From a virus, in IMG/VR virus record IMGVR_UViG_3300009593_004077, positions 1 to 20,356 of that record: DNA of 20,356 bases, one strand, 5' to 3'. The position numbers and the translations under genes were made by a program. Shown piece by piece: positions 4,244 to 20,354 of this stretch (the first letter of the stretch is position 1; each line of letters opens with the position of its first letter). The notes beneath the pieces are model-generated. The model saw only the letters and a program-made list of their open reading frames with translations. It was not told where the DNA came from and ran no database searches.

Positions 4244-7200
4244 ATGGCAACAGAAAATGATCTTGCAGAAGATTTTAGGAGGCTTGCTTCTGAAACTTTG
4301 ACTAAAAGGGCAACTCCTCCAGAGTTGCCTTCTGGTCCTCCTCAGTTTGCTGCACCTAAAAACAAAATGCTTGAATCTTTAGGCATCAAGTATTTAGACC
4401 CTAAAGTCTACGGTGTAGACACAGCCCTTTCTAGGGATAAATCTTTTTGGGAAAGAGATCAGCCTTTTGGCTTGTACGGCGACATGCCTGTCAGACCAGA
4501 TCCTACTACTGTTTCGTGGATGAACGAGGTGTATCAAGACAGGGCTTATGATAATCTTCCTTGGCATCAAAAACTTTTAGTCAATGTTGGTAAAGCCGCT
4601 ACTACTGGTTTGACAGGATTCTTATTTAAAACAATACAGTATCCGTTGACGGTGATGGCTGTTGGCGCTCGATTATTTCTGGAAAATCAGCATAAATTTA
4701 ATCCTTTTGTAAATGAGGCTCAGGGCAATCCTGAAAACAGAATGGGTGTCAGGGATGCTTTCGGCAAGTTAAACATTTTTTCAGGTTCTGGTACTTACAC
4801 TTTTGGTGAAGTTTTACACGACATGGATTATTTGCAAGATACTCATTGGGCTTGGAAAGTGGGGCTTGCAGGTGATATTTTCTTAGATCCTTTAACTTAT
4901 TTGACTGTTGGTATAGGTAAGGCAGGCCTACTTGCCGCTAAAGTTGCTGCTAAGGGTGGTGTAACAATTGCTCGCCATACGGCTAGAAGAGCAGTTCAAG
5001 AGGCTGCTGAAATAGCCTTTGAAGCGGCTGGTCGAAGCGCTGACGAGATTGCAGGAATTTCTGGCAGAATTGCTGCTCTTCCTGATTCTACTATCAATCA
5101 ATTAGCAGACAGTATTGTAAGCGGATCTACTTATTCTCGTGGTTTTAATACTGTTACAGGCGAAATCGACGATGTTGTTAAACATGTCGATGATGCGGTT
5201 GAAGTTAATCTTCGTTCTTTATTTGATGAAGTCGGAGAAGGCGCAATAGATGATGTTTATTTGACTTTAAACGCTGATGATGTTGCAGATATGCGGATCT
5301 TGTTTGATCCGCAAATTCGTGGAACTACTGGCGTGTCTGACGATGTTTTACGTGTTGCTGCTACGCAAATCCATAAAAATCGGTTAGATGAAACTTTGCG
5401 AGTTGTACCAAAACAAGCCGATGATGCTGTTGGAGTTTTTGCAAAAGAAACTAATAAAAAAGGTTTTTATGGCGCTAGAACAAGGCAACCGAGAGAATGG
5501 TTTCCAGACATAGGTGAAGCACAGAACGTTCACTTGGCTCTCGGGTTTAAAGTTCCTCTTTCGGGAAGTCTTGGCCAGAAAATTTTTAGACACAACTTGC
5601 AGCAACCTATTGGGTTTAAAGTTCTTGGTTCTGCAACTAACCCTGTTATTGGCACTTGGTTAAGGGCTATACCGCAGGCAACTCGGTCACTTTTCTTTGG
5701 ACGTAAAATTGTTAAAAACGGTCCTTTGGCGAGAATTTTTGCTGCAACAACTGGGAAGGCGGCCCCTGAAGGGGTGCTTGGCACTGCTGAAGGTGGTTTG
5801 ATTGGTTGGATGCGACGTGGTGGGCGCAGGCAAGATGTAAGACAATTGGCTAGGCAGGCGTTTAGGGATGGCGACGCTGTTGCTGTGCATCAGTACAAGT
5901 CGCTTCTTCATATCAGTGGTCGTGGTGATGCTGCGGCTAGGAAAGCAGGAACTGATTTAAGTCGTTTGTTGAAAGAGTTTCGGAGAAATTCTTTAATATC
6001 TAGCGTTGATAGTCAAGATCTTGTTGCGGCTTTAAGAGGAAATGAAGAAGCCATTGGAATCCTTAACAATGTGCAAGGCACTAGGGAAATAGGTGGGAAA
6101 ATTGAAACTGTTACCGCTTACGATTTGGCTCAAGAGTTTATGGAAAACTTGCGTGTTGTTTCTAACAGAATGGCGCATAGGGACTTTTTAGGAAAAGTTG
6201 ATAATTATTTGCCTCGTGTTTTAAGCGATGATGCTGCAAGATATTTGGAATCTAAAAAAAGTGGGTTGATTGGTCGTCGTCACAAGAATGTGAAACGTAA
6301 ATATGGTCCTTCTGGTTTTGAAGAAAGACGTACATATGTTTCTGCTGAGGAGTATGACGAATTAGTTAAGCAAAAAGGTGAAGAAGCGGTTCTTGAATCT
6401 GGTATGCAGAAAACGTTTTTAGGTGAGGAACTTTATGATCCTGCTAATGCTAATGGTTTGTCTGTTGAGGAACAGATTGCCGAGATCATGCATTCTAAAG
6501 GAATCAATTATTCTTTGTTTGATGACGATTTTGATCGTGTAATGGACGTATATATAGGGGCTATTTCTAAGCGTATAGGGGAAGTTTATTCAGAGTCTCT
6601 TCTTATTAAAGAGGGAATTTTTGTTGATGTGACAACTTCTTTTGTTCATATCCCAAATGGTGAAGTTGCTGGCGCTGTACATAATGTACGTAAAGCGCAA
6701 ACAAAGGTCGTTCAAAGCGCCAATGCTTTAGATGAAGCATTAGAGGAAGCGATTTTACAAGGTAGCGAAGAGGTTGCGAAGCAAACTCGGTATGTTAAAC
6801 AATTAGAGGAAATTGCTAAGCAGGCTCAAACAGAGTATGACAGCGCTGTAGCAAAATTCAACAAGTTGGCTGAAGATGCCCTTCAGTTGGAAGAATTAAA
6901 CGAAGCAAGGCGCGTTGCTGTAGATGAAATAAACAGGAAACTTGCCGCTATAAGCGAAGGGGCTGCTTTTTCTGAAAAGGTTGTTGCGGCTGCTGAAGAG
7001 GCTAAACGACTTCTTGACGAAAAAGAAAGATTATTTACGAGTGGTTTGCTTGATTTCCATACAGGCGCGTTAAAAACTGCTTCTGTTCAGAAAATGGTTT
7101 TAGAGAACAGGATATTTAGTTTATTCGGAAGTAAGAAAAGGTGGGATGATTTTGCTGAACTCGCAAAAGGATATGATCCAATCGAACAACCTGATTTTGC

Positions 7201-10200: not shown

Positions 10201-12715
10201 TGCAGGTATTACTCCTGCGATTAGGGCTACAGGTGATGTAAGCGGAATCATTAAAAGATTTTTTGCAGACGAAGGGTTACCTGTTCCTGATATAGATTCA
10301 GCGACTTTAAGGCTTATAGAAGAGGAACTGATGTTAAATAAACTTCCTTCAAGAGTTTATTCAACATACAGAAATTCTTTAACCCTTGATGGCTACAATG
10401 TTGCTGTTTGGCGAAACCGCAGGGAAGCGGTTTCGGTTACAGGCCATGGTTCAGAAATTAGGGGTCAATCTTCATTCATGTTGACGAACCCTCATGCTGT
10501 TAAACCTGTACAGTCTGTCGATTCTCAGATAAAAATGATGGCTGGTGAAATTGATGGGCAAGGAAAATTGTTGGATTATGAGAAAGCAATCGACGAATAC
10601 ATAGAAGCAATTGATGCAGAGTTTGCAGGGATGACTGCTCGGCAAAGGGCTGATTGGGGCGAAAAGTTTGAAAAGTTCATAAATCCTGATGATGTTCTTG
10701 TTCAAATGCAAAACAGTTCGCAGCAGCGTATAGCAGGTTTGGGTTCTGTAGGTTTAGAAAGTGAGGCTTTGAAAGATTTGGCAGAGGCTCGTGCGAGAGT
10801 TGAATCTGCAGGGTTGCCTGCTAAGGAACTTAAAGAAGCGAGAATTGTTTTAGAGGGAGTGCAAAGCCGTGTAGATGAAATGTCTCGTGCGCAAAGAACG
10901 TTAAATGTGATTTTGGACGAAAACAGTATCAATCTTGAAGCACCATTGTTAAGAGGCGCTTACGAACAGTTGCAGACTTCTGTCGCTATTCTCCATTCTG
11001 TAAATCTTGAACAAAACAGAAAAGCGCTTGAACTTGCTTTAGGTCAAGGAGATCTTAATGATATCGCTAGATACATTGGAGACATTAATCAAGGGTCTGT
11101 TGATGGAATAAGTAATGAACTTTTGCAGGCTATAGAGGGTTTAAAAACTTTAGAGGGTGCAAGACCGATACCTAAAGGCGGTATTGCCGCTGAGCCTATT
11201 TCTCCTGATGACGATTTTTGGTTTCCTTTGAAGTCTTTTCAGGATAGAGAAAAGATTTTAGATGAAGTTTTTGTATCTGGTTTTAAGGCTTTTGGTGTGA
11301 ACGCTCAGGGTCCTGAAGCGATGGTTGATGCTATGACTGCTGTTACACGTTTTCAGGCTCAAGGCGGTTGGGGTGCGTTCCTTAGACAATACGATAAAGT
11401 CCATAACCTAACCAAGGGCTATATGATTGCGAAACCTGGGTTTCATATGAGGAACCTTTTTTCTTCTACTTTCATGAACTTTTTACATGGTGTAGATATT
11501 GCTAGTTATCGCCAGTTCCAACGTGCTTATTGGCAAGTTCAACATGAATTGGCTGTGGAGCGTGGGGCTGTTAAAACGGCACGGAACATCAGGGTTGCTA
11601 TGCGTTCTAGGGGCATTTGGAGAAAAACCAACGATGATGCTAAAGCGATTGTACGCGAAATGCTTGATGAAAATATTGTTGGTACTTCTGCTGGTCAGAT
11701 AGGTGTGGAATTTACTGGGGGTAGTGCACGTGGGGGCAGGATTCGTCGTGCTTGGAGTACTGTGAATCCGTTTAATTCTAGAAACCTTCCTTTGCAGTTG
11801 TCTAAAAATGTTGGTATGGGTGTTGAGACTTATGTGCGTGGTGCGCTTGGGTTTGATGTTATTAAAAAAGGTGGAACAGTCGATGAGGCTTTTGACGCTA
11901 TAACTACTTGGCATTTTGATTATGACGATTTGTCTGATTTTGAACGTTTTGTTGTTAAAAGGATCATTCCATTTTATACATGGACGAAAAATGCTATGCC
12001 TTTGATGATTGAGCAGATAGGTAAAAATCCTGCAAAAATGAGTTTGTATTTCAAGTTAAAGAACAATGTGGAGCAAGGTCAAGACCGTGCGCCAATTGTT
12101 CCTGAATATTTTCATCGCCAACAAGCCATGCAATTACCTATCAAGTACAAGGGTGAGAACATGTTTTGGTTACCTGATTTACCATTTAAGGCTCCTTTTG
12201 AATTGCTTGATCCTACTTTGTCTTTTGATACAGATATGACTGTTGCTGATAGGGTTAAAACGGCTTTGGGTAGTGTTCTTACTCAAACGACGCCTTTGAT
12301 TAAAGCGCCTGTTGAGTGGTATATGCAACGTAACATTTGGAAAGGTTATTCTTTTTCAGGCAGGTATCAGGAAGTTCCTACTGCTTATCAGACAATTCCT
12401 TTACTTATGCCCATGTTAGATAAGTTGGGTTTGAGCGAGAATCAAGATGATAGATGGTTTATGAAGGATTACGATTTGCATGCCATGGCGCAATTGTTGC
12501 CTACTTTCACGGATTTGCGTAGGTTGTTTCCTAGTGAGGAGCGGTATCAGCAAAGAACTTTGTCTAGTTGGTTGAGTTTTGTGTTTGGTGCTGGTATTAG
12601 AACTAATACACGTGACGAGCAGCAACGTGTATTACAATCTTTAAGGTACGAACGTCAAGAGGAAATTGACGACATGAACTCTTTACGCAGGGCTGCTGCT
12701 AGAGCGAATCAATAG
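4244..12715 (+). CDS. Giant 2823-aa virion/polyvalent protein with embedded HipA/PI3-4K-like kinase module and LPD38-like C-terminus
   Basis: The N-terminal region has hydrophobic helices (about 120-146 and 205-240). A segment DNYLPRVLSDDAARYL lies near residue 655. A long coiled coil covers about 810-930. Residues about 1270-1560 look like a protein-kinase-like fold: beta-strand lysine in YFLKRY (K1318), glutamate in GEVLADNLY (E1345), catalytic-loop NHDVMG (D1450) with N1461 eleven residues on, and metal-binding RLDNGASFFYRG (D1475). This is the pattern of HipA-like / PI3-4-kinase-like enzymes. Residues about 2390-2640 (GYMIAKPGFHMRNLFSS; RIIPFYTWTKN at 2574-2584) resemble LPD38, a domain of phage polyvalent proteins. 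No lytic transglycosylase motif was found. Position after two virion-type genes and before lysis genes suggests it is packaged and ejected. The kinase call is fairly firm, its substrate unknown. Confidence 0.8.
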   Translation: MATENDLAEDFRRLASETLTKRATPPELPSGPPQFAAPKNKMLESLGIKYLDPKVYGVDTALSRDKSFWERDQPFGLYGDMPVRPDPTTVSWMNEVYQDRAYDNLPWHQKLLVNVGKAATTGLTGFLFKTIQYPLTVMAVGARLFLENQHKFNPFVNEAQGNPENRMGVRDAFGKLNIFSGSGTYTFGEVLHDMDYLQDTHWAWKVGLAGDIFLDPLTYLTVGIGKAGLLAAKVAAKGGVTIARHTARRAVQEAAEIAFEAAGRSADEIAGISGRIAALPDSTINQLADSIVSGSTYSRGFNTVTGEIDDVVKHVDDAVEVNLRSLFDEVGEGAIDDVYLTLNADDVADMRILFDPQIRGTTGVSDDVLRVAATQIHKNRLDETLRVVPKQADDAVGVFAKETNKKGFYGARTRQPREWFPDIGEAQNVHLALGFKVPLSGSLGQKIFRHNLQQPIGFKVLGSATNPVIGTWLRAIPQATRSLFFGRKIVKNGPLARIFAATTGKAAPEGVLGTAEGGLIGWMRRGGRRQDVRQLARQAFRDGDAVAVHQYKSLLHISGRGDAAARKAGTDLSRLLKEFRRNSLISSVDSQDLVAALRGNEEAIGILNNVQGTREIGGKIETVTAYDLAQEFMENLRVVSNRMAHRDFLGKVDNYLPRVLSDDAARYLESKKSGLIGRRHKNVKRKYGPSGFEERRTYVSAEEYDELVKQKGEEAVLESGMQKTFLGEELYDPANANGLSVEEQIAEIMHSKGINYSLFDDDFDRVMDVYIGAISKRIGEVYSESLLIKEGIFVDVTTSFVHIPNGEVAGAVHNVRKAQTKVVQSANALDEALEEAILQGSEEVAKQTRYVKQLEEIAKQAQTEYDSAVAKFNKLAEDALQLEELNEARRVAVDEINRKLAAISEGAAFSEKVVAAAEEAKRLLDEKERLFTSGLLDFHTGALKTASVQKMVLENRIFSLFGSKKRWDDFAELAKGYDPIEQPDFAAYIKQVAPDMADDDVAKNVEWMNQVSELVSDIDSTPQGPWLALQNETVESLQGQPSLSNFVNNIEGTFKMLDNQIEISQGIVSDGQQLLADAGVAMEDLFVGGKLPTPENISEAKQIIVQKLDEAMAPETVGHWWEIPIGHPEYSKPMAASKQYLDLDAAWVKLMSEDPDFKNAVHLFYDSFKGFNVKAAFVDGQDLNNLIESGIRGLDDKRMLAKELGSLEIFNDPLIASNGKGRVFNDVTVQDLATWIKWRDQTLTSFNSGSLPAPVTHNSAEDILQGGILRGVSQHSDTGYVLEDLGVDLEDAEDLLEILDGSNLVVKVDFGDKTYFLKRYLGDQGLQTSIDLPNASAAEHRVTGEVLADNLYDQLSSGGAPRSSYSFIDNGTELDGWWKVSEEVEQIIPADGYDVSTQDRRTSLNSQGEILGYEIVRIANPQDVIAATDVPLRELRQQSFMADVLLGNHDVMGYGGPDGVNFGINRLTGEFVRLDNGASFFYRGRGVPKSSDPSFNFGEVQEMFGPETFFDESYENTIGHVNDNLLMRQGLGSAAGFVSEMSNQLDVLLDIRLNSGGWENWVRNLMPDLSDDNVALYTAWLDERSRTLARKFNKKFDDDIPVPRVLNLIHRSKLEGFLPQGQIIGTADAAWLDSQAGMNANVGNVENALFEPDDSEYLIQLGLPRDAGGARFYGYALVEEDELVELLIEQSKLNPKNEVGEFVELERHIEALERTIEDDARAIGLSGATVFDGGVRDQAWDIAERVFNSDPDLLRNYLEQASSTIVGGGSNTAAYADFVLELMDSVDRLSSRSLFGIDPDGVPLGWRDKMLIVSQILRLDDIGFGASVGKVDPALKGILDDWFLRVPSALSEPKEVYENLPEVIGILESLPDVRLRELISRRISGLSSDAGIGARRASWIKRLQWEQNPLLAAFHDGRIFREGTHASLGWSNRNVRSVLHRELFGSSTAEMDRVYRLADEIIREEGGSFTTVSGGDYLTGQSEAGVAGITPAIRATGDVSGIIKRFFADEGLPVPDIDSATLRLIEEELMLNKLPSRVYSTYRNSLTLDGYNVAVWRNRREAVSVTGHGSEIRGQSSFMLTNPHAVKPVQSVDSQIKMMAGEIDGQGKLLDYEKAIDEYIEAIDAEFAGMTARQRADWGEKFEKFINPDDVLVQMQNSSQQRIAGLGSVGLESEALKDLAEARARVESAGLPAKELKEARIVLEGVQSRVDEMSRAQRTLNVILDENSINLEAPLLRGAYEQLQTSVAILHSVNLEQNRKALELALGQGDLNDIARYIGDINQGSVDGISNELLQAIEGLKTLEGARPIPKGGIAAEPISPDDDFWFPLKSFQDREKILDEVFVSGFKAFGVNAQGPEAMVDAMTAVTRFQAQGGWGAFLRQYDKVHNLTKGYMIAKPGFHMRNLFSSTFMNFLHGVDIASYRQFQRAYWQVQHELAVERGAVKTARNIRVAMRSRGIWRKTNDDAKAIVREMLDENIVGTSAGQIGVEFTGGSARGGRIRRAWSTVNPFNSRNLPLQLSKNVGMGVETYVRGALGFDVIKKGGTVDEAFDAITTWHFDYDDLSDFERFVVKRIIPFYTWTKNAMPLMIEQIGKNPAKMSLYFKLKNNVEQGQDRAPIVPEYFHRQQAMQLPIKYKGENMFWLPDLPFKAPFELLDPTLSFDTDMTVADRVKTALGSVLTQTTPLIKAPVEWYMQRNIWKGYSFSGRYQEVPTAYQTIPLLMPMLDKLGLSENQDDRWFMKDYDLHAMAQLLPTFTDLRRLFPSEERYQQRTLSSWLSFVFGAGIRTNTRDEQQRVLQSLRYERQEEIDDMNSLRRAAARANQ
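4307..4331 (+). other. Inverted repeat (10-bp stem with one G-U) near the 5' end of the giant gene
   Basis: Arms AGGGCAACTC (4307-4316) and GAGTTGCCTT (4322-4331) enclose a 5-base loop. In the + strand RNA all ten positions pair, one of them as G-U. The stem starts about 60 bases after the start codon and encodes a Pro-rich linker (RATPPELPSG). It could modulate early elongation or be an RNA-processing site; chance is not excluded. Confidence 0.4.
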
Positions 12716-12734
12716 GACAGAAAGGCTTATAGGT

Positions 12735-13508
12735 ATGGATTTCAATTTACCAGTTACTTCTAAATGGGTACGCACGGAAGAGTTGCACCCTAAATTCAAA
12801 TACAGGTTAAATCAGTTTTTTAAAGATAACCGTATTGTTGGGCGTGTGAAGATTGTCAGCGGTGTACGCACGTTAGCGCAACAACAGGCGTTATATGACA
12901 AGTACAAGGCAGGTCGCGGGAATCTCGCCGCGAATCCAATGAGACGCATGTCTAATGGCATGCGTGGTTCTTACCATATGGCTCAGGAGGCTTTCGGTGG
13001 CTATGGTTATGCTGTTGATTTAAGGATTACAGGCAAAGGGCTGTCTACTGCTGAGGTGAATCGTATCGCAGCGGAGTATGGCTGCGTGAAAACGGTACCT
13101 TCGGAGTGGTGGCATGTATGTCCTGGGCGTGTACAGGGGTCAGAATTTGTGTGGTTTGACGCTCCTGCGGTTTCAGGTGATGAAACCTTGGATGCTGTGA
13201 AAATGGACCCTAAGACACCCCTTCAGATCTTCGCTGAGGCGGTCACAGAGGCTCGTCAGCACGTCCTACGCAAGGGCAGTAGGGGTAAACCTGTTGAGGT
13301 GCTTCAACTGTTCTTAGAGCAAGAGGGGTTCTGCACGGCACGGAACAAGAAACGTTCACGTAAGGGCGCAGGAATCGATGGCATTTTTGGTTCAGGTACA
13401 AGGGCTGCTGTTATGAAGTTCCAAGAATCTGAATTTGTAAACACAGGTAACAAACTCACTGTGGATGGGATCGTTGGTCCTTCTACGTGGAATGCGTTAA
13501 TAAATTAG
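12735..13508 (+). CDS. Endolysin: VanY-like (M15) zinc peptidase plus peptidoglycan-binding domain
   Basis: A 257-residue lysis enzyme that cuts peptide bonds in host peptidoglycan. Residues about 20-135 form a VanY/M15-type D,D- or L,D-carboxypeptidase-like domain. Visible motifs are SGVRTLAQQQALYDKY (conserved Arg45), zinc ligands H81 (GSYH), D95 (YAVDLR) and H127, and the catalytic E124 in SEWWHV. The H81-D95 spacing is longer than the usual H-x6-D, because a Gly/Tyr-rich insert (AQEAFGGYGY) lies between. Residues about 178-257 (KPVEVLQLFLEQEGF; VDGIVGPSTWNALIN) are a PG_binding_1-type repeat. There is no signal peptide, so release should depend on the holin coded 100 bases downstream. The ribosome site is AGAAAGG. 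Confidence 0.92.
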   Translation: MDFNLPVTSKWVRTEELHPKFKYRLNQFFKDNRIVGRVKIVSGVRTLAQQQALYDKYKAGRGNLAANPMRRMSNGMRGSYHMAQEAFGGYGYAVDLRITGKGLSTAEVNRIAAEYGCVKTVPSEWWHVCPGRVQGSEFVWFDAPAVSGDETLDAVKMDPKTPLQIFAEAVTEARQHVLRKGSRGKPVEVLQLFLEQEGFCTARNKKRSRKGAGIDGIFGSGTRAAVMKFQESEFVNTGNKLTVDGIVGPSTWNALIN

Positions 13509-13516
13509 GAAAAGAT

Positions 13517-13603
13517 ATGCCTAAAGTGGGAAATAAAAAATACGCCTACACTGCTAAAGGTAAGGCCGCTGCTGCAAAAGCAAGGAAAAGAAAGAAGAAA
13601 TAA
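13517..13603 (+). CDS. Tiny 28-residue basic protein (MPKVGNKKYAYT... type)
   Basis: A 28-residue peptide beginning MPKVGNKKYAYTAKGKAAAK and ending in a run of Lys and Arg. AGGAAAAG precedes the ATG, and its stop overlaps the holin ATG (TAATG, 13601-13605), which argues that it is translated. Very small proteins of the pattern MPKVG-K-Y-YT-KG-AAAK are familiar from many phage genomes, but no function is known to me. The charge suggests binding to nucleic acid or to phospholipid. Its place between endolysin and holin could equally mean a lysis accessory or a minor virion peptide. Confidence 0.72.
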   Translation: MPKVGNKKYAYTAKGKAAAAKARKRKKK

Positions 13604-13812
13604 TGAATTATAGAGATCTCGCTGAGCGTGTAGGGGCAACTTTTGTTCAAGCCGCTGTGGGCGCTATGGGAACTAACACATTTTTGGATCTAGGTATAGA
13701 TCAATGGAAAATGATTGTTATGGCAGGCGTGTCTGCTGCTCTTTCAGTTTTGAAAGGCGCTGCTGCTGCTCGTCTGGCTGGCACAAGGGGTTCTGCTTCT
13801 CTGGTGGATTAA
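13603..13812 (+). CDS. Holin, r1t-like
   Basis: A 69-residue membrane protein that should oligomerise in the cytoplasmic membrane and open holes for the endolysin. It has two hydrophobic stretches, about residues 10-29 (GATFVQAAVGAMGTNTFLDL) and 36-60 (KMIVMAGVSAALSVLKGAAAARLAG). They are joined by a short turn with Asp, and the tail reads GTRGSASLVD. The order, length and the ALSVLK...GSASLV ending match the phage r1t holin family (Pfam 'r1t holin') that is common in phages of Gram-positive, especially actinobacterial, hosts. It is coupled to the 28-aa gene by TAATG and touches the next gene without a gap. Confidence 0.85.
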   Translation: MNYRDLAERVGATFVQAAVGAMGTNTFLDLGIDQWKMIVMAGVSAALSVLKGAAAARLAGTRGSASLVD

Positions 13813-14166
13813 ATGAGCGAAGAAGATACCAACATAGCCTTTGAGCAGTGGTGTAGAGCAGAAGGTGACGCTATCGCTGATGAGATAAGGGATAGCATGA
13901 AGGCCAGTTCAAGCGTATTGAACGTTGATGATGGTTCTCACGCTGTTTGGCATGAAGGTAATTTAGGTTTGCTTTTAGTTCTTCCATTTGAGCATGCTAT
14001 GGCTTTTGCTGTTGAGCATGAAAACAATGATGTTGAGACTAATCCTGTACACAACTACATATTTAACACTATTAGTAACCTTGTTCTTCGCGCTACAAAC
14101 ATAATGGATTTCCCTGATGATCCTGCAGAATGGCAGGATTGGGCTGACGATTTTGGTGAAGATTAG
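13813..14166 (+). CDS. Small acidic protein at the end of the + strand block, function unknown
   Basis: A 117-residue acidic protein whose ATG follows the holin stop directly. It begins MSEEDTNIAFEQWCRAEGDA and has a central hydrophobic strand LGLLLVLPFEHAMAFAV, then helices, and ends in WQDWADDFGED. No signal peptide, clear membrane span or catalytic motif is seen; the hydrophobic strand is probably buried rather than transmembrane. The tight spacing places it in the lysis cassette, so an antiholin or late regulatory role is possible but unsupported. Its stop codon overlaps the stop of the convergent gene. Confidence 0.72.
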   Translation: MSEEDTNIAFEQWCRAEGDAIADEIRDSMKASSSVLNVDDGSHAVWHEGNLGLLLVLPFEHAMAFAVEHENNDVETNPVHNYIFNTISNLVLRATNIMDFPDDPAEWQDWADDFGED

Positions 14167-14696
14167 ATCTTAATGTGTTCGTATTGGTCGCTTAAAGGTA
14201 AGCGCCAAATGTTCCTAACCACCATGCATCCTATGATGCAGTAACCTACAAGGTCTAAGAACGTATCTTCGATGCTTTCAAAGTTACCGTTTCTTCCTGC
14301 AAGGTTTTCTAGTCTGGCTATTTTGTCATGTATACGCACAAGCAAGCCGTCTGTTCCGAATCTGCTTATATTCTCGTATCCGTAATCTTCTTGCTTTTTT
14401 CTAAGCAGTGGAATTACTTGCGTTGCAGTTAGTTCAAAGTCGTCGTCGTAATAGAATTTTGTCATGTCTAGGAACATGATTGCCATTGCTGTGAACCAGT
14501 TAGCGCCGACATCTTCGTACACTTCTGCGCCGTAATAAACTGCTGAAAACGTGTCGTATTCGTTGCGTATGACTCCTAAAAGGAGGTCGTGGTCTTGTGA
14601 GTGAGGGTGCCTCACTCCTTGTACACGTTTTGTATCTATGTTGTTTGCCATCAGCCCTGCGGCTGCATCCCATGTTTCTGGGCTAATTTTTCTCAT
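14163..14696 (-). CDS. DUF1599 / Nmad1-like protein (nucleotide-modification-associated, all-alpha)
   Basis: A 177-residue helical protein. The C-terminal half carries a recognisable signature: KKQEDYGYENISRFGTDG (about 100-117), LLVRIHDKIARLENL (118-132) and ESIEDTFLDLVGYCIIG (140-156). This is the K-x-DYG / R-DK--RL / E--DTLLDL-Y pattern of DUF1599 (nucleotide modification associated domain 1), related to the all-alpha NTP pyrophosphatase fold. In that fold the Glu/Asp residues bind metal and a nucleotide. The N-terminal 90 residues are extra and of unknown role. A possible job is handling modified or non-canonical dNTPs. The start follows AAGGAA at 7-base spacing and overlaps the sigma-like gene by 14 bases. 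It is the last gene of the - strand block. Confidence 0.75.
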   Translation of the reverse strand: MRKISPETWDAAAGLMANNIDTKRVQGVRHPHSQDHDLLLGVIRNEYDTFSAVYYGAEVYEDVGANWFTAMAIMFLDMTKFYYDDDFELTATQVIPLLRKKQEDYGYENISRFGTDGLLVRIHDKIARLENLAGRNGNFESIEDTFLDLVGYCIIGCMVVRNIWRLPLSDQYEHIKI

Positions 14697-15006
14697 CTAA
14701 AAATTCCTTAACTATTTCGTGTCGGGAAAGTTCTTCCCCGAGTTTTTTCAATATTTGATCTCTTCTACGAGCAACTGTCGTTTTAGGTATGCCTAAAATG
14801 TATTCGACATCTCGTAAACTCAGTTTTTCAAACAGTAAAGCGTTAATGATCCAGAGTTCTATGCCTTCAAGAGTGTCGTATGCGTTAAATACTAATTCGT
14901 GTAACGCTGTTCGATCTACCCCTGAGAATCTTTCGTCTTTGCCTGAAAGTGTTTCTTTCAGCCAAGATAAGTGCGAAGGGTCAGTTGGTATTTCCTTGCG
15001 ACTCAT
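14683..15006 (-). CDS. Sigma-70 region 4-like DNA-binding regulator (107 aa)
   Basis: A small protein whose residues about 45-92 read as sigma-70 region 4: LEGIELWIINALLFEKLSLR, then DVEYILGIPKTTVARRRDQI, then LKKLGEEL. This is a helix-turn-helix of the LuxR/sigma type that would contact a -35 element or the beta-flap. There is no region 2, so it cannot act alone as a classical sigma factor. The first 40 residues are unrelated and short. Likely roles are an anti- or co-sigma factor that redirects host RNA polymerase, or a simple repressor or activator. It overlaps the upstream gene by 26 bases and the downstream gene by 14, so it is part of the replication operon. The ribosome site is weak. 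Confidence 0.78.
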   Translation of the reverse strand: MSRKEIPTDPSHLSWLKETLSGKDERFSGVDRTALHELVFNAYDTLEGIELWIINALLFEKLSLRDVEYILGIPKTTVARRRDQILKKLGEELSRHEIVKEFLDEKN

Positions 15007-15430
15007 CTACCCATACTAACGCAGCAGGTATCGCATAGTACTGTTTCCCCTCAGGAAACGATTCTATCGTCGCTTTTCTGCACAATTTTTGCAAATCGCT
15101 GTACTCTATTAACGCATTTCTGTCATTTGTTGAGTCATAAACAAAAAGTTGCACTTTGTGCATTCGGTTCCATGAACCTAATGCTTTCATTTTTTCTAGT
15201 TTCATTTTCAACATCTGATCTTTGCCTAAACCTTGCACTTCTACAAGGTTGTTTGACGTTAAATAATCAGGTGTATGCCTTATGGAAAGAGGCAATGAAG
15301 CCATGTTTAGAGGGGGTCTGTTAAGTCCGTAACGTATGTAATTGACTTCGGATGTTTCTTCAAATTTTCGTTCAGCGATATCGCCCATCATTTGTATTCT
15401 TTGGTTGAACGGCCTATCTGCAAAACTCAT
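14981..15430 (-). CDS. PD-(D/E)XK-like nuclease-fold protein (149 aa)
   Basis: A 149-residue protein with the layout of a small restriction-endonuclease fold. There is an N-terminal helix with E20 (GDIAERKFEE), then RHTPDYLTSNNLVEVQGLGK, giving D55 and the E64-x-Q66 pair. After that comes a basic helix (KDQMLKMKLEKMKALGSWNR) and a strand VQLFVYDS. Gln replaces the usual Lys of the (D/E)XK motif, a variation known in some families. Similar 'TPDY...VEV-G-G-D' proteins are common in actinophages, usually called hypothetical. It may be a structure-specific nuclease working with RusA, or an inactive relative. Its ATG overlaps the stop of the 39-aa gene (ATGA). Confidence 0.7.
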   Translation of the reverse strand: MSFADRPFNQRIQMMGDIAERKFEETSEVNYIRYGLNRPPLNMASLPLSIRHTPDYLTSNNLVEVQGLGKDQMLKMKLEKMKALGSWNRMHKVQLFVYDSTNDRNALIEYSDLQKLCRKATIESFPEGKQYYAIPAALVWVDESQGNTN

Positions 15431-15546
15431 TTGTTTTTACGTTCTTCTTTACGCTTCAAGTATCTTTTATGATCCTCTTCACGTGCTTTTTCAAGCGCTT
15501 TTTTTGTCATTGTGGTATTCATGCCAGTAGGACTGATGTTACCCAT
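15427..15546 (-). CDS. 39-residue basic helical peptide between RusA and the nuclease-fold gene
   Basis: A short frame opens 8 bases after the rusA stop with a near-perfect ribosome site (AGGAGG, 7 bases before ATG). It starts MGNISPTGMNTTMTKKALEK and continues as a strongly charged helix rich in Lys, Arg and Glu, ending ERKNK. The stop TGA overlaps the next ATG as ATGA, a classic coupling. The strong ribosome site and exact fit between two genes make translation very likely, although it is short. No family is recognised; the charged single helix could bind nucleic acid or a partner protein. Confidence 0.72.
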   Translation of the reverse strand: MGNISPTGMNTTMTKKALEKAREEDHKRYLKRKEERKNK

Positions 15547-15554
15547 GTTTCCTC

Positions 15555-15956
15555 CTATAGTTTTGTGGCTTCTACGTGAACGACTTGCGAGTCGTTCACG
15601 ATAATTCCAGCACGTTGAATCCCATCTAACGCTAGTTTTACGTAATTATCTAGGTCACCTCTAAGGGGCGACTTCCATGATTTGTCCACAGATTCGATAT
15701 TCACGACTGTACTGTCGTTAGAGAAAATCAATCCAACTTTTACAGGTCCCACGAAAACAGGTGCGTCATCACCTGCAGCATAAGCGTATTCTTCTTCGGC
15801 GCTTACAGTAGCAGCAGGCGTATAAACTCTCCCTTTGCGAGACATTCGTGGGCGGCCCTTTGGTACAGGCCGCCCATGAACTAAAAAGTTAAACTCAGTT
15901 ATGTCTGGTTGCTCGTTGTCTTGCGTCGGCAACGAGTCTTTTGATTTGTCGGTCAC
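15555..15956 (-). CDS. rusA: RusA-like Holliday junction resolvase
   Basis: A 133-residue endonuclease that cuts four-way DNA junctions made during recombination and replication. The family signature is clear. VHGRPVPKGRPRMSRKGRVY (about 26-45) is followed by TPAATVSAEEEY, GPVKVGLIF, the acidic core LRGDLDNYVKLALDGIQRAG (about 97-116) and IIVNDSQVVHVEATK. The Asp residues of GDLDN and of VND are the expected Mg-binding residues, and all are present. It starts at GTG; an AGGAAGG site 7 bases upstream favours this over later codons, even though it makes a 62-base overlap with the primase gene. Its place after primase and helicase fits a role in resolving replication intermediates before packaging. 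Confidence 0.93.
   Translation of the reverse strand: MTDKSKDSLPTQDNEQPDITEFNFLVHGRPVPKGRPRMSRKGRVYTPAATVSAEEEYAYAAGDDAPVFVGPVKVGLIFSNDSTVVNIESVDKSWKSPLRGDLDNYVKLALDGIQRAGIIVNDSQVVHVEATKL
15575..15600 (-). other. Perfect 11-bp inverted repeat in the 3' end of rusA
   Basis: Arms CGTGAACGACT and AGTCGTTCACG lie around a 4-base loop, with no mismatch. The hairpin ends about 18 bases before the rusA stop and about 30 bases before the strong ribosome site of the 39-aa gene. It overlaps codons for the conserved VNDSQVVHV strand, so both protein and RNA constraints may act. No T-run follows, so it is not a standard terminator. Confidence 0.6.
15849..15876 (-). other. GC-rich 9-bp inverted repeat over the RusA GRP motifs
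   Basis: Arms TGGGCGGCC and GGCCGCCCA flank a 10-base loop, and in the - strand RNA an extra U-G pair can extend the stem to 10. The arms encode the two GRP tripeptides of GRPVPKGRPR, so part of the symmetry comes from the protein. The choice of complementary synonymous codons is what makes it perfect. Confidence 0.45.
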
Positions 15957-16896
15957 AATCTTGCCTTCCTACGAATTTAGGTCCGTCCGTCCACCATTGT
16001 CCTAAGCGTCCGTCAAGGTCTTTGGTCCATGTCAGTATATCGTTCTGATCATAGCCTGCTTCCCACATGGCTCTAGCGAACCTATTTAGGAAACCGTGAC
16101 GACCTCTTCCAGCGCCTTGTCCAGAAGTGTAGTACGAATGAGGGCCGTCGTTGTACATTGAGCGTGCAACACCTCGTAAGCGTGTTCCATCTACTTGCAT
16201 TAACGGCTCTTTCGAGTACTCTCTTGGTGGCGGCAAATCGGGTGTGGGATCTTTCCACAACCCTGCTGCTGTTTCTAACAAATCGATCTTCGCACGTTTG
16301 CTTTCTGCATGTTCAAGAAAGTAATCGAACTCGATGCCTATCATCTCTTGTCTGCCTTCTGGCCTCGCCCCTCCATACGGTAAACGCATGTAATTTCCTG
16401 GGGGTCCGCTTAAAGAATCACTCTTAGGATAAACAGCATCGTATTTGATGTCTGCTATCTGGCAGGCTGACTGTAAGGCTTTTCGCATCGTTGTGGCTTG
16501 CACCCAATCTTCTGCGAACACCCATACGTGGCATCCTTTTGATCGTGAAAGTTCTACCCAACTCTGCACGGCTAACGCTTCTAGTACGGTGCTAGCGTTT
16601 TGTGCGTGAATAATTGAATCTTCACCTTCGTCTATATCTATGGCTCCCCATTTGCAATACCACAAAGAGGGGTCCATGTCGTTGTATTTTTTATCGTTGC
16701 CATAGGCTTTGCATCCAAGTTCATCACGAGTGCTGAAAGGGTCGTAAACCATTGGGTAAACGCCTATCATTTCCTCGCCAGATAGATGACGTTTCAACAA
16801 ACCGTAGGTTATGCCTTCCCACACGCAACCTCCGCTGTCGCTTCCGTATGCATGAGGAAAACCTTCAAACAGTTGGTAAAACTTATTCACTTTCAT
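15895..16896 (-). CDS. Archaeo-eukaryotic-type (AEP) DNA primase, TOTE-like
   Basis: A 333-residue replicative primase that should make primers at the phage fork. The AEP catalytic motifs are visible in order: WGAIDIDEG (D87 and D89, metal-binding), SRSKGCHVWVF (119-127, the S-K-x-x-H motif with H123) and PKSDSLSGPPGNYMRLPYGG (157-176), which matches the PK...GN-x-RLPYG signature of TOTE-type AEP primases. Residues about 260-330 are helical with RHGFLNRFARAMWEAGYDQN and resemble a PriCT-type C-terminal domain. There is no zinc-binding TOPRIM/DnaG-type motif. It overlaps the helicase gene by 14 bases and the rusA gene by 62, so the three are co-expressed. The start is the ATG at 16896, with no better upstream choice seen. 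Confidence 0.88.
   Translation of the reverse strand: MKVNKFYQLFEGFPHAYGSDSGGCVWEGITYGLLKRHLSGEEMIGVYPMVYDPFSTRDELGCKAYGNDKKYNDMDPSLWYCKWGAIDIDEGEDSIIHAQNASTVLEALAVQSWVELSRSKGCHVWVFAEDWVQATTMRKALQSACQIADIKYDAVYPKSDSLSGPPGNYMRLPYGGARPEGRQEMIGIEFDYFLEHAESKRAKIDLLETAAGLWKDPTPDLPPPREYSKEPLMQVDGTRLRGVARSMYNDGPHSYYTSGQGAGRGRHGFLNRFARAMWEAGYDQNDILTWTKDLDGRLGQWWTDGPKFVGRQDCDRQIKRLVADARQRATRHN
15964..15970 (-). promoter_or_regulatory. Ribosome binding site that sets the GTG start of rusA
   Basis: AGGAAGG on the - strand lies seven bases before GTG at 15956, within the primase reading frame. No ATG is available until well inside the conserved domain, so this site decides the start. Confidence 0.6.
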
Positions 16897-17878
16897 CGAA
16901 ACTCATCTGCTCCCATGTGACTCCAGCCTCTAGCAATCTACCACTTGGGTCTATGGTCAAATGGGTTTCTGCTTTTTCGCCTTCGCCTGCTTTGTTTTTC
17001 CAAAGCCCAACGCTTATTTCGTTTTCGTAGTATCTGCGGACTTCTTCTTCTAGGTTTGTGTCATCCCAACGCCGCCATGTTTCTATCACGAAATGGCTTT
17101 CGCTGGTTCCTGCATACCTGCCAGAATCAATACCTCCTGCTGTTCCACGGCTGCCAGAGCCGCGACCAGACTGGTGAACTACTACGCCTACAACACGCCA
17201 ATCTGAAACGAGTTGCTTAAACGATTCTATTTTTCCTTGCACGCTGCTTGCGTCACCTGAGCCTCCGCCCCGAATGAGTTCCAAGTAGTCGTACACTAGA
17301 ACTTCTGGCCTTTGCCCTCCCCATAGTTGAGAGGACGCTATCCGCATTGCTTTGTCTAGGTCATCTACCGACATACCTGTTGACTCGAAATGCAGATTGC
17401 TAGCCTTAGTCATTATCTCCTGTGTGCGCTCCCAAGCAACCTTATCGTCGCGTTGCAAGCGTGCATTCCAGTCCTTTTGACTTATGTCTAGTTTCATGGC
17501 TGAATAGCGCCCCCAAAACATTTGTTCTGTTTCGTCAGGGCTTATCCAAAGTGTTCTGAGATGAGGGTTGTGGGCAATCATGTTTAAACCAAGCATCGTT
17601 TTACCTGTATGCGTTTTACCGATCAAGGTAACGAGTTGGCCTGCTCTGGCACCGCCCATGGTTGCTTCATCAAATGCACGGATTCCAAACTTCCACACAC
17701 CACCTGCCCTGAAATCGTCACGCATTCGTGACAATTGCTCAGTTTTGGGAGTATATAAACGCTTAATATCCGCAGACGTGACCCCATCTATTTTTGCCTC
17801 AACAGGTTTCGGGGCGGCTTTCGCCGCCCCTTCACCTATGAGTTGCATAGCATCTTCAAGGGATAATCGGTCAGGCAT
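16883..17878 (-). CDS. DnaB-like replicative helicase (RecA-fold ATPase)
   Basis: A 331-residue RecA-fold ATPase expected to unwind DNA as a hexamer. It shows a Walker A motif GKTHTGKT (87-94), WISPDETEQMFWGR (111-124), Walker B EVLVYDYLELI (192-202), and a sensor strand VVGVVVHQSGRGSG (229-242). An Arg-containing loop follows near 252-270. This matches the C-terminal domain of DnaB-family and RepA-like helicases. It is shorter than a full DnaB (about 450 residues), and only about 60 residues precede the core, so the usual N-terminal primase-contact domain is missing. Residues 16-25 are an Ala/Pro-rich linker (EGAAKAAPKP). The ATG overlaps the previous stop by 8 bases, and the primase follows directly. 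Confidence 0.88.
   Translation of the reverse strand: MPDRLSLEDAMQLIGEGAAKAAPKPVEAKIDGVTSADIKRLYTPKTEQLSRMRDDFRAGGVWKFGIRAFDEATMGGARAGQLVTLIGKTHTGKTMLGLNMIAHNPHLRTLWISPDETEQMFWGRYSAMKLDISQKDWNARLQRDDKVAWERTQEIMTKASNLHFESTGMSVDDLDKAMRIASSQLWGGQRPEVLVYDYLELIRGGGSGDASSVQGKIESFKQLVSDWRVVGVVVHQSGRGSGSRGTAGGIDSGRYAGTSESHFVIETWRRWDDTNLEEEVRRYYENEISVGLWKNKAGEGEKAETHLTIDPSGRLLEAGVTWEQMSFDESE
17811..17830 (-). other. All-G/C 8-bp hairpin with GAAA loop near the helicase start
   Basis: On the - strand the sequence is GGGGCGGC, GAAA, GCCGCCCC: a perfect stem of only G-C pairs closed by a GNRA tetraloop, an exceptionally stable RNA shape. It begins about 48 bases after the helicase ATG and encodes the Ala/Lys/Pro linker. 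In this AT-rich genome a block like this stands out. No T-run follows it. Confidence 0.5.
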
Positions 17879-19400: not shown

Positions 19401-19552
19401 CTTTCCTCCAAACGTATCTAGTAAACTTCGCTCTCCTTTACAGAGAGCGAAGGTACTAAGTACTAATACTATTCTACTGCTGTGACAACCTGTTTCGTGT
19501 TACAGTCGCGTTCCAATGTTTTGAGTTATGTTACATTTTCTTTACGGAAATG
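19401..19552 (-). promoter_or_regulatory. Intergenic control region ahead of the replication operon
   Basis: This is the only sizeable non-coding gap in the window. On the - strand it has a possible -10 TAGAAT (complement of 19471-19476), but no good -35 at 17 bases. Three TGTTAC words (+ strand) begin at 19498, 19529 and 19551. An imperfect operator-like inverted repeat, CTGTGACA (19480-19487) and TGTTACAG (19498-19505), differs at one position. An odd palindrome GTACT-A-AGTAC lies at 19453-19463. TTACGGAA occurs at 19542 and 19553, 11 bases apart. Together they suggest a regulated promoter, but none is proven. Confidence 0.45.
19426..19452 (-). other. 10-bp perfect hairpin in the leader of the nuclease gene
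   Basis: Arms CTTCGCTCTC and GAGAGCGAAG surround a 7-base loop. The hairpin ends about 25 bases before the ATG of the Cas4-like gene, in non-coding DNA, and is followed on the - strand by TTTAC and not by a true U-run. It could be an RNase III-type processing site, a leader stabiliser, a weak terminator of the two upstream genes or an attenuator. Confidence 0.6.
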
Positions 19553-20023
19553 TTACGGAACCCATTTCCCAACGTTTTCCAGACTCCTGTCTCTCGGCCA
19601 TATCCTATTGATTACACCCCAAGTAGAGTTCAACGTCCACGACACCCTGTCAGCGATTGTTTCCCCAAACTGGTCGTACCATTTCTCGTGAACCGCAGGT
19701 TTAAAATTGTCGTAAGTGATGTCGTTGCAAGCCAAACCAAGATAGTTCATCCAAGCATTCTTAGGGATAAGCATACGATGCTCATAATCTGTACCCTCAA
19801 AGGTCCAAATTTCACCGCTCCATTCACCTTCCTTAGGTTTGATCCACTCAACATCGCAATCTTTCAACCTGTCCACAACTTGCGTCATCGACCACGAATC
19901 TCTTGTCCTGACAAGCAGGTAAGATTGTTGCGGCAACTCGTGCCCTTTCCAATAAGGCGCATCCATTCCATGCGCTTCTGCATTAGCGACAGAATAAAAT
20001 CCGTCTGTTGTTATTAACCACAT
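19553..20023 (-). CDS. 'MWLITTDGF' protein, actinophage-type, function unknown
   Basis: A 156-residue protein starting MWLITTDGFYSVANAEAHGM. The N-terminal block is followed by LLVRTRDSWSMTQVVDRL and, near the end, by YEHRMLIPKNAWMNYLGLAC and ITYDNFKPAVHE. Proteins that open MWL(F/I)TT-GF(Y/F)SVV and end with DY-NFK are widespread in actinobacteria and their phages, with no known activity; this example is longer. A GTG five codons upstream is also in frame, but GGAGAG lies 5 bases before the ATG used here, and the family begins at this Met. There is no membrane segment or catalytic motif. It follows the previous stop by one base. Confidence 0.75.
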   Translation of the reverse strand: MWLITTDGFYSVANAEAHGMDAPYWKGHELPQQSYLLVRTRDSWSMTQVVDRLKDCDVEWIKPKEGEWSGEIWTFEGTDYEHRMLIPKNAWMNYLGLACNDITYDNFKPAVHEKWYDQFGETIADRVSWTLNSTWGVINRIWPRDRSLENVGKWVP

Positions 20024-20024
20024 A

Positions 20025-20354
20025 TCAACTCTCCACACTTTGTACGTCTATTTCGTGCATGCCCATATCTACAATAACGACATCGTTCCAATCAACATTT
20101 GTGCTTACACTGCGCACAAGTTCTTCGGCTTCTTCTTCGCTATGTGCATTTACCCATACACGCATCACTGCTTGAGTTTCAAACGTGACGCTATAATTTT
20201 CTGGTCCCACACTTTCCTCCAATACTTGTAACGAGCAAACAGGGGGACGAGTGGGGGGTGTAGCCCCCTGTCTGCTCTTGTTTTTTATATATCTAACTGC
20301 CCATATAACCGCAGATACAAGAAATAACCCAATAACTGCTATAGGATAACTCAT
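20025..20354 (-). CDS. Membrane-anchored small protein (109 aa) with possible internal start
   Basis: Residues 3-21 (YPIAVIGLFLVSAVIWAVRY) are a single membrane span followed by basic residues (KNKSRQ), so the rest should face the cytoplasm. A Pro-rich linker (GATPPTRPPVCS, about 29-40) then leads to a small acidic alpha/beta domain (YSVTFETQAVMRVWVNAHSE... VIVDMGMHEIDV). That domain resembles short free-standing phage proteins. A GTG at 20210 (residue 49) has its own strong ribosome site and would give a soluble 61-residue product. The linker region holds a long RNA hairpin. The function is unknown. The ATG lies only two bases from the window edge, so an upstream gene may overlap it. Confidence 0.68.
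   Translation of the reverse strand: MSYPIAVIGLFLVSAVIWAVRYIKNKSRQGATPPTRPPVCSLQVLEESVGPENYSVTFETQAVMRVWVNAHSEEEAEELVRSVSTNVDWNDVVIVDMGMHEIDVQSVES
20029..20034 (-). promoter_or_regulatory. Ribosome binding site choosing ATG at 20023
   Basis: GGAGAG on the - strand stands five bases before ATG at 20023. It overlaps the alternative upstream GTG at 20038, which therefore has no site of its own nearby. Confidence 0.6.
20216..20220 (-). promoter_or_regulatory. Internal ribosome site ahead of GTG 20210
   Basis: GGAGG on the - strand lies five bases before an in-frame GTG, inside the 109-aa gene. Its context (TTGGAGGAAAG) is nearly the same as that of the Cas4-like nuclease gene, which suggests a real start. 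Confidence 0.45.
20233..20277 (-). other. 14-bp RNA hairpin with competing C-runs inside the 109-aa gene
   Basis: On the - strand GAGCAGACAGGGGG pairs with CCCCCTGTTTGCTC across a 17-base loop. All 14 positions pair in RNA, one as G-U. The same position is an A-C mismatch on the + strand, so the structure belongs to the transcript of this gene. The loop contains a second run of six C (20253-20258) that could pair with the same G-run, giving a 5-bp alternative hairpin. The ribosome site at 20216-20220 lies 12 bases downstream. Confidence 0.65.

Follow-up and report, generated by a model that had tools for sequence, protein, structure and literature searches.

Position of the hairpin and gene order

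A long hairpin lies a short distance ahead of a ribosome site in the DNA analysed here, and it raises the question of what kind of element it is, to which gene it belongs and how it might act. The window, that is, the whole stretch of DNA that was analysed, comprises 20356 bases and is the entire record of an uncultured virus. Structural genes are located on its + strand and a replication module on its − strand, with the latter encoding a PD-(D/E)XK exonuclease, a DnaB-like helicase and an AEP-type primase. The hairpin, termed P1, lies where the − strand module begins, some 80 nt short of the contig end. The features of this region are as follows:

20211–20354, − strand: upstream part of a 109-aa open frame, traversing the hairpin, with its ATG at the contig end
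20264–20277, − strand: P1 5′ arm (segment A), GAGCAGACAGGGGG, forming 14 pairs with 20233–20246, one of them G-U
20247–20263, − strand: P1 loop, CTACACCCCCCACTCGT, containing a C-run (segment B, 20253–20258)
20233–20246, − strand: P1 3′ arm (segment C), CCCCCTGTTTGCTC, pairing with the 5′ arm
20216–20222, − strand: Shine-Dalgarno sequence TTGGAGG, 5 nt upstream of the GTG at 20210
20025–20210, − strand: 61-aa gene downstream of the hairpin, starting from GTG 20210, weakly DpnD/PcfM-like
19553–20023, − strand: MWxxT.. gene (156 aa, no assigned function), found directly behind the hairpin in most relatives
19426–19452, − strand: second leader hairpin, before the ribosome binding site (RBS) of the PD-(D/E)XK exonuclease gene, CTTCGCTCTCT-GTAAA-GGAGAGCGAAG, its position being conserved in relatives

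The lineage is without literature, as the nearest annotated phage (MW202803) shows an identity of only 28–34%. The product of the MWxxT gene (MW protein) gave no match in Pfam or PHROG, and its sole NCBIfam match was far under the cut-off and meaningless. Its AlphaFold model had a mean pLDDT of 82, and a search of the PDB with this model returned no match at E ≤ 0.001. One MW protein had its best match in the phage collection with an Actinomycetia phage (40%). A search of the relatives for a T7-type polymerase gave no match, with the control genomes being equally silent.

Structure of P1 in the window

Of the 14 pairs in the stem of P1, a single one is G-U in − strand RNA and reads A-C on the + strand. 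The stem is separated from GGAGG by a spacer of 12 nt (GTTACAAGTATT), followed by AAAGT and the GTG at 20210. A preliminary description, made from the letters of the window alone, had stated that the stem is complete only in − strand RNA and that a ribosome site lies 12 bases past it; these and all of its other structural statements on P1 proved correct. Folding of 20233–20277 as − strand RNA gave −25.6 kcal/mol (z −5.87, with 0/200 shuffles as good) and as + strand RNA −22.7 kcal/mol (z −2.74), the latter fold being weaker because the A-C mismatch breaks the stem. With a score of 35.5, P1 ranked at the top of eight strong − strand hairpins, the runner-up scoring 30. A chance origin of P1 was ruled out by the shuffles together with the comparison with relatives described below.

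The gene preceded by P1

The hairpin had been assigned in the preliminary description to the transcript of a membrane protein gene. The open frame of 109 aa (20025–20354) does span the hairpin, with its ATG lying 2 nt from the record end, but its homologues do not support this assignment. From residue 46 on, the frame shares 92% identity with a protein encoded on IMG/VR contig 3300030107_002518 (loci L002/L004), and its C-terminal part shows a resemblance to PF14207 (DpnD/PcfM-like) that falls under the cut-off (E 0.0055). The homologue in locus L003 has an ATG at exactly the codon of the window's GTG 20210 (after SVG..), and that of L002/L004 starts 16 codons upstream in frame, yet still past the hairpin. 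In both L003 and L002, the upstream reading frame terminates 6–7 nt ahead of the hairpin. A peptide scan found no homologue for the hydrophobic N-terminal half, which, with its start 2 nt from the record end, is a putative coding segment. A linker within a membrane protein was thereby rejected, as the homologues of the remainder start after the hairpin. Homologous genes with an unpaired linker, named in the preliminary description as the result that would refute a structured RNA, were looked for, and the closest homologues, L003 and L004, do not show this. Because homologues of the downstream domain begin past the hairpin, P1 is the 5′ leader of the weakly DpnD/PcfM-like 61-aa gene that begins at GTG 20210.

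Conservation of P1 among relatives

Relatives were gathered by way of the exonuclease, which yielded 124 IMG/VR loci (the window counted), or 59 after dereplication. In 34 leaders from these 59 loci (window included) a strong hairpin immediately precedes the ribosome site of the gene that lies 5′ of the exonuclease, this gene being the MWxxT gene in most relatives and a small gene as in the window in a few. The hairpins of the relatives have 11–23 pairs and are placed at the same kind of position, a typical leader reading GCGTGTGGGGGCGGGGC-ACTGATCCCCTCCGTC-GTCCCGTCCCCTCACGC-tcttacactcaggaggtgtatgtATG. Among the 28 non-redundant cases, most have a stem that starts 4–20 nt past the upstream stop codon, and P1 thus fills the intercistronic gap.

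The position of the stem is kept and its sequence is compensated. Stem and loop sequences differ widely from phage to phage and among the leaders of a single genome, with arm similarity averaging 0.47–0.53. When arms were swapped between phages, own arms gave −32.9 kcal/mol against −18.4 ± 1.0 for swapped arms (0/20000 permutations; since the sequences are related, permutation values such as this overstate independence). In an alignment of 20 sequences, 93.3% of the P1 cells were paired and both sides had changed in 12 of 17 pairs, with lower values for the controls. A structure of two helices, the second of which is described in the next section, scored above column shuffles (≤1/500 as high) and above every slid version by each of five measures.

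The strand on which pairing takes place was read from the deviations from Watson-Crick pairing. As the first hairpin finder favours G-U, the focal hairpins were rescored with G-U and A-C treated alike, which gave 63 G-U against 4 A-C on the sense strand; the sense strand is therefore the pairing strand. A covariance model was also built from 16 relatives, leaving out the window, L003, L004 and L024. Its single match in the window at E ≤ 10 covered 20275–20208 (19.6 bits, E 0.019) and ended on the GTG start, and the same model placed the leaders of L003 and L002 correctly. An earlier model (R1) proves nothing for the window because the window was included in it.

A structured RNA of regulatory type, as opposed to plain coding DNA, had been suggested in the preliminary description, with covariation in relatives as the check; the compensated stem and the sense-strand G-U in 63/67 deviations bear this out. 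Sense-strand RNA structure, leader position and architecture are thus established by comparison of sequences, and P1 is very probably a conserved sense-strand RNA leader element.

A second hairpin and the wider early-gene pattern

In most relatives the Shine-Dalgarno sequence itself is found in the loop of a hairpin of 4–6 pairs (P2), the flanks of which covary (e.g., GCAC-AGGAG-GTGC, GTCA-TGGAG-GTGAC and TACCT-AAGG-AGGTA). Own flanks in these leaders gave −3.49 against −1.62 ± 0.27 (0/20000). P2 is missing from the window and a few relatives, and comparison of the region in the window (TTGGAGGAAAGTGTG) with that in L003 (TTGGAGGTGCAGATATG) shows that the window has lost it.

The pattern extends to other genes of the same genomes. 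Within genomes, the test of Shine-Dalgarno flanks was significant on the early strand in 6/8 genomes (z −2.6 to −5.9) and reached the 5% level on the late strand in only 1/6 (p 0.04). Strong hairpins located 8–60 nt ahead of Shine-Dalgarno starts numbered 29/73 against 4.2 expected (0/500). Leaders laid out in this way are widespread among these phages' early genes. It is conceivable, though on balance doubtful, that P1 is one part of a genome-wide post-transcriptional system of this lineage in which early genes carry two-part leaders of free sequence and fixed architecture, made up of a long hairpin that competes with itself and, behind it, a hairpin presenting the Shine-Dalgarno sequence. 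Were this the case, one factor, such as a nuclease or RNA-binding protein, could read the shape and set the translation of early genes as a group.

Proposed role of P1 and alternative explanations

It is proposed that P1 is a cis-acting leader hairpin of an early message, serving in intercistronic processing or protection and in insulation; a probability of roughly 0.4 is given to this mechanism as a whole. The − strand RNA between two genes folds into a long, perfect stem about a dozen bases ahead of the Shine-Dalgarno sequence and would act post-transcriptionally on the next gene. The stem would provide the downstream cistron with a protected 5′ boundary and would prevent upstream RNA from pairing with its ribosome site, and P2, where present, may tune initiation. 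This mechanism is preferred because the stem takes up the space between stop codon and Shine-Dalgarno sequence, combines length with perfect pairing, has no U-run behind it (33/34 leaders) and is free in sequence. A pure double-strand signal would not account for the G-richness of the 5′ arm (60% G) or the C-richness of the loop.

Because both this polarity and the C-richness of the loop have been conserved, the strongest rival is a translational operator, in which a phage or host protein would bind P1/P2 and repress or activate the gene behind, possibly autogenously. Operators at ribosome sites are known in phages, as with the MS2 coat protein and T4 gp43, and the constant G-rich 5′ arm, the recurrent C-run in the loop and the placement of the Shine-Dalgarno sequence within a small covarying hairpin would suit such a site. 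However, the stem and loop sequences diverge both between phages and within a genome, to the arm similarity given above, and no recognised RNA-binding fold was found for the MW protein in the PDB (none at E ≤ 0.001), so that an operator is considered unlikely.

The loop C-run had also led the preliminary description to propose two mutually exclusive shapes, and a bistable RNA switch has to be weighed in which the C-run and the 3′ arm vie for the 5′ G-run, the two folds differing in access to the ribosome site. In the window, the C-run (20253–20258) is able to pair with the G-run at 20264–20268 in place of the 3′ arm. The loops are C-rich in general (44% C against a background of 24%), CCCC occurs in 17/28 of them with 7.9 expected from shuffled loops, and at least four alternative pairs can form in 21/28 non-redundant relatives. 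The 5′ arm with its own loop gave −10.06 against −6.21 ± 0.56 with random genomic loops, with 0/300 of these as strong, and pairs that have changed together were observed in L114 (GGGGAUU/AAUCCCC), L098 (GGGAGU/ACUCCC) and L005 (GAGGG/CCCUC). The leaders of L015 and L053 have alternative hairpins that are long. Against this, the alternative falls short of the full stem by 12 kcal/mol or more; in the window, the 5′ arm and loop alone gave −10.5 kcal/mol with 7 pairs, compared with −25.6 for the full hairpin. Folding of the growing chain showed that the full stem wins once 5–11 nt of the 3′ arm have been made. Loops can be exchanged among phages at little cost (p = 0.053), covariation with the ribosome site was seen for neither the loop nor the 3′ arm (p = 0.35 for both), and L126, L024 and L125 possess the stem without a competing run. 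The competing pairing recurs and beats random loops, but its own covariation in the loop swap is borderline, and a regulated switch is judged rather improbable. The short G-run/C-run hairpin is read here as a transient intermediate or folding guide of the nascent stem; under the processing and insulation mechanism it would be an intermediate and not a regulated second state. The loop was also considered as an anti-Shine-Dalgarno sequence. CCTCC was found in 6 loops against 2.8 by composition (p = 0.048), and CTCC or CCTC in 14 against 9.1 (p = 0.02), but this reading was rejected, as there is no covariation with the own RBS and the window loop is without CTCC.

The next three readings fail in the relatives, although the terminator and the frameshift signal are attractive in the window alone. 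An intrinsic terminator or attenuator could work on the sense strand or else, as far as the window is concerned, on the + strand, on which TTGTTTTTT comes after the stem. Apart from this + strand layout it is favoured by L108, which has TTTTTT right behind the stem on the sense strand. The other 33 leaders lack a sense-strand U-run behind the stem, the window having GTTACAAGTATT there, and no A-run like that of the window was seen when upstream sequences of relatives were inspected by eye. With the G-U deviations lying on the sense strand, + strand RNA pairs worse, and a gap of about 15–25 nt between P1 and the start in most members leaves scant space for a new promoter. Such a role for P1 is very improbable.

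A palindrome acting at the DNA level (operator, promoter part, replication or packaging site), as proposed for the ESAS of cluster K phages discussed below, has slightly less still to recommend it. It finds a parallel in other hairpins, such as the one before the RBS of the exonuclease gene. This hairpin is present at the same place in about 40 relatives, its 5′ arm usually being C-rich and its loop A-rich, and TACTAAGTAC-like palindromes follow or enclose it. As its mismatches (6 G-U against 6 A-C) are without strand preference, it is possibly a DNA-level site. The marked excess of G-U over A-C in the focal family is not predicted by selection on DNA, and the P1 sites are strictly placed ahead of a start codon and share no sequence.

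A stimulator of −1 frameshifting can be all but dismissed: the heptamer A AAA AAC (window 20280–20286, − strand) is exactly right and in frame within the 109-aa frame, but it is judged coincidental, given a spacer to the stem of just 2 nt (5–9 nt being usual at −1 frameshift sites), the ending of the upstream gene 4–20 nt before the stem in most relatives and further upstream in most others, the absence of the heptamer from the upstream sequences inspected in relatives, and a −1 frame which stops soon after the hairpin.

Other structured elements in the relatives

Several further structured elements were observed. A stand-alone tRNA-like domain of tmRNA (83–106 nt, RF00023 at 61–72 bits) was detected in some relatives, with about 14 nt replacing the mRNA-like and pseudoknot part of about 300 nt in L007. 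In three relatives a Pistol ribozyme (RF02679, 51–57 bits) lies some 100–250 nt upstream of this domain. ARAGORN called no tmRNA in the loci on which it was run. The early region of one relative contains a type II hammerhead ribozyme. The sites are:

L007 454–536 and 189–250: tmRNA-like domain (RF00023) and Pistol ribozyme (RF02679)
L015 1614–1696 and 1437–1506: tmRNA-like domain (RF00023) and Pistol ribozyme (RF02679)
L072 2386–2468 and 2698–2762, − strand: tmRNA-like domain (RF00023) and Pistol ribozyme (RF02679)
L069 15266–15371: tmRNA-like domain (RF00023)
L069 12094–12170: hammerhead type II ribozyme (RF02276, 45.7 bits)

Near-perfect hairpins of 17–24 pairs were also seen, with free stem sequence and an 11-nt loop that recurs as GAACGAAGTGA (or GAATGAAATGA, GAACAAAGTGA), frequently a short way upstream of early-gene ribosome sites. 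Examples are:

G008 (L069) 12433–16501
G001 (L065) 15937–15993 and 17768–17826
G002 (L079) 4451–4505
G013 (L075) 12635–13118

Another recurrent structured element, GGCGGTCGGAGGTT-TCTTGAAACCTCCC-AGCCTCCGGCTGCC followed by CGCAGGGGTGCGTCTGCG...CGCA, is found in L041, L049, L050 and others, between about −900 and −1800 relative to the exonuclease start. Here too a segment of the loop can pair with the 5′ arm instead, and a similar tail precedes the MW gene in L055.

Comparison with known systems

Messages of phage T7 carry RNase III-type processing hairpins between cistrons. P1 resembles these in being a long intergenic stem just before the next ribosome site, and its position and stem length are compatible with a processing site of the T7 type. 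It differs in its conserved G/C arm polarity, its C-run loop and the usual presence of a separate Shine-Dalgarno hairpin.

With the leaders and riboswitches of Rfam 15, P1 shares a structured 5′ leader by the ribosome site and the possibility of alternative pairing; it differs from riboswitches in that the leader has no conserved aptamer-like core. A scan of the window against Rfam 15 returned no family at gathering score, and the matches over the hairpin obtained with permissive settings (E 2.1–2.2, bits far under the cut-off) are attributed to chance.

Little was found in the literature on hairpins before phage ribosome sites beyond the SAS/ESAS of cluster K mycobacteriophages (PMC3203893), which have an analogue in the cluster EF Microbacterium phages (PMC7302621). 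The SAS is a conserved Shine-Dalgarno motif of 13 nt with GGG...CCC symmetry (GGGnnnnnnnCCC) at the starts of non-structural genes, and the ESAS, located upstream of about half of the SAS sites, is a pair of inverted repeats of about 17 nt with a short spacer (PMC3203893). The ESAS repeats share a consensus and the authors saw little support for RNA pairing (PMC3203893); the ESAS was later read as carrying SigA-like promoters (PMC11373665). In both systems a Shine-Dalgarno sequence with symmetric flanks marks the start of non-structural genes and inverted repeats lie upstream, as with the 29/73 strong hairpins counted above, and either layer may occur alone. However, the SAS is one sequence of 13 nt, whereas the P1/P2 flanks vary from gene to gene and are compensated, and the ESAS repeats have a common consensus, whereas P1-type stems differ within a genome, covary and carry G-U on the sense strand. 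When the consensus of cluster K (GGGATAGGAGCCC) or cluster EF (GGGAAAGGACCCC) was sought with up to two mismatches 3–9 nt before starts in 9 genomes, none was present in the window or in the early-gene leaders discussed here, and a few scattered matches were seen in relatives. P1 was not filed as a member of SAS/ESAS because neither the sequence consensus nor the lack of RNA pairing was found for it. The P1 leader sits, and perhaps works, like SAS/ESAS.

In actinobacteriophages, repeats associated with gene starts have been on record since 2011 with no function attached to them, the upstream inverted repeats being judged non-RNA. The present lineage is unrelated to the SAS/ESAS phages and keeps the layout with free sequence, so that compensatory change can be read, and here it is the structure of the sense RNA that is kept. 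The lineage thus lends itself to comparative work on the marking of early genes by phages where translation starts.
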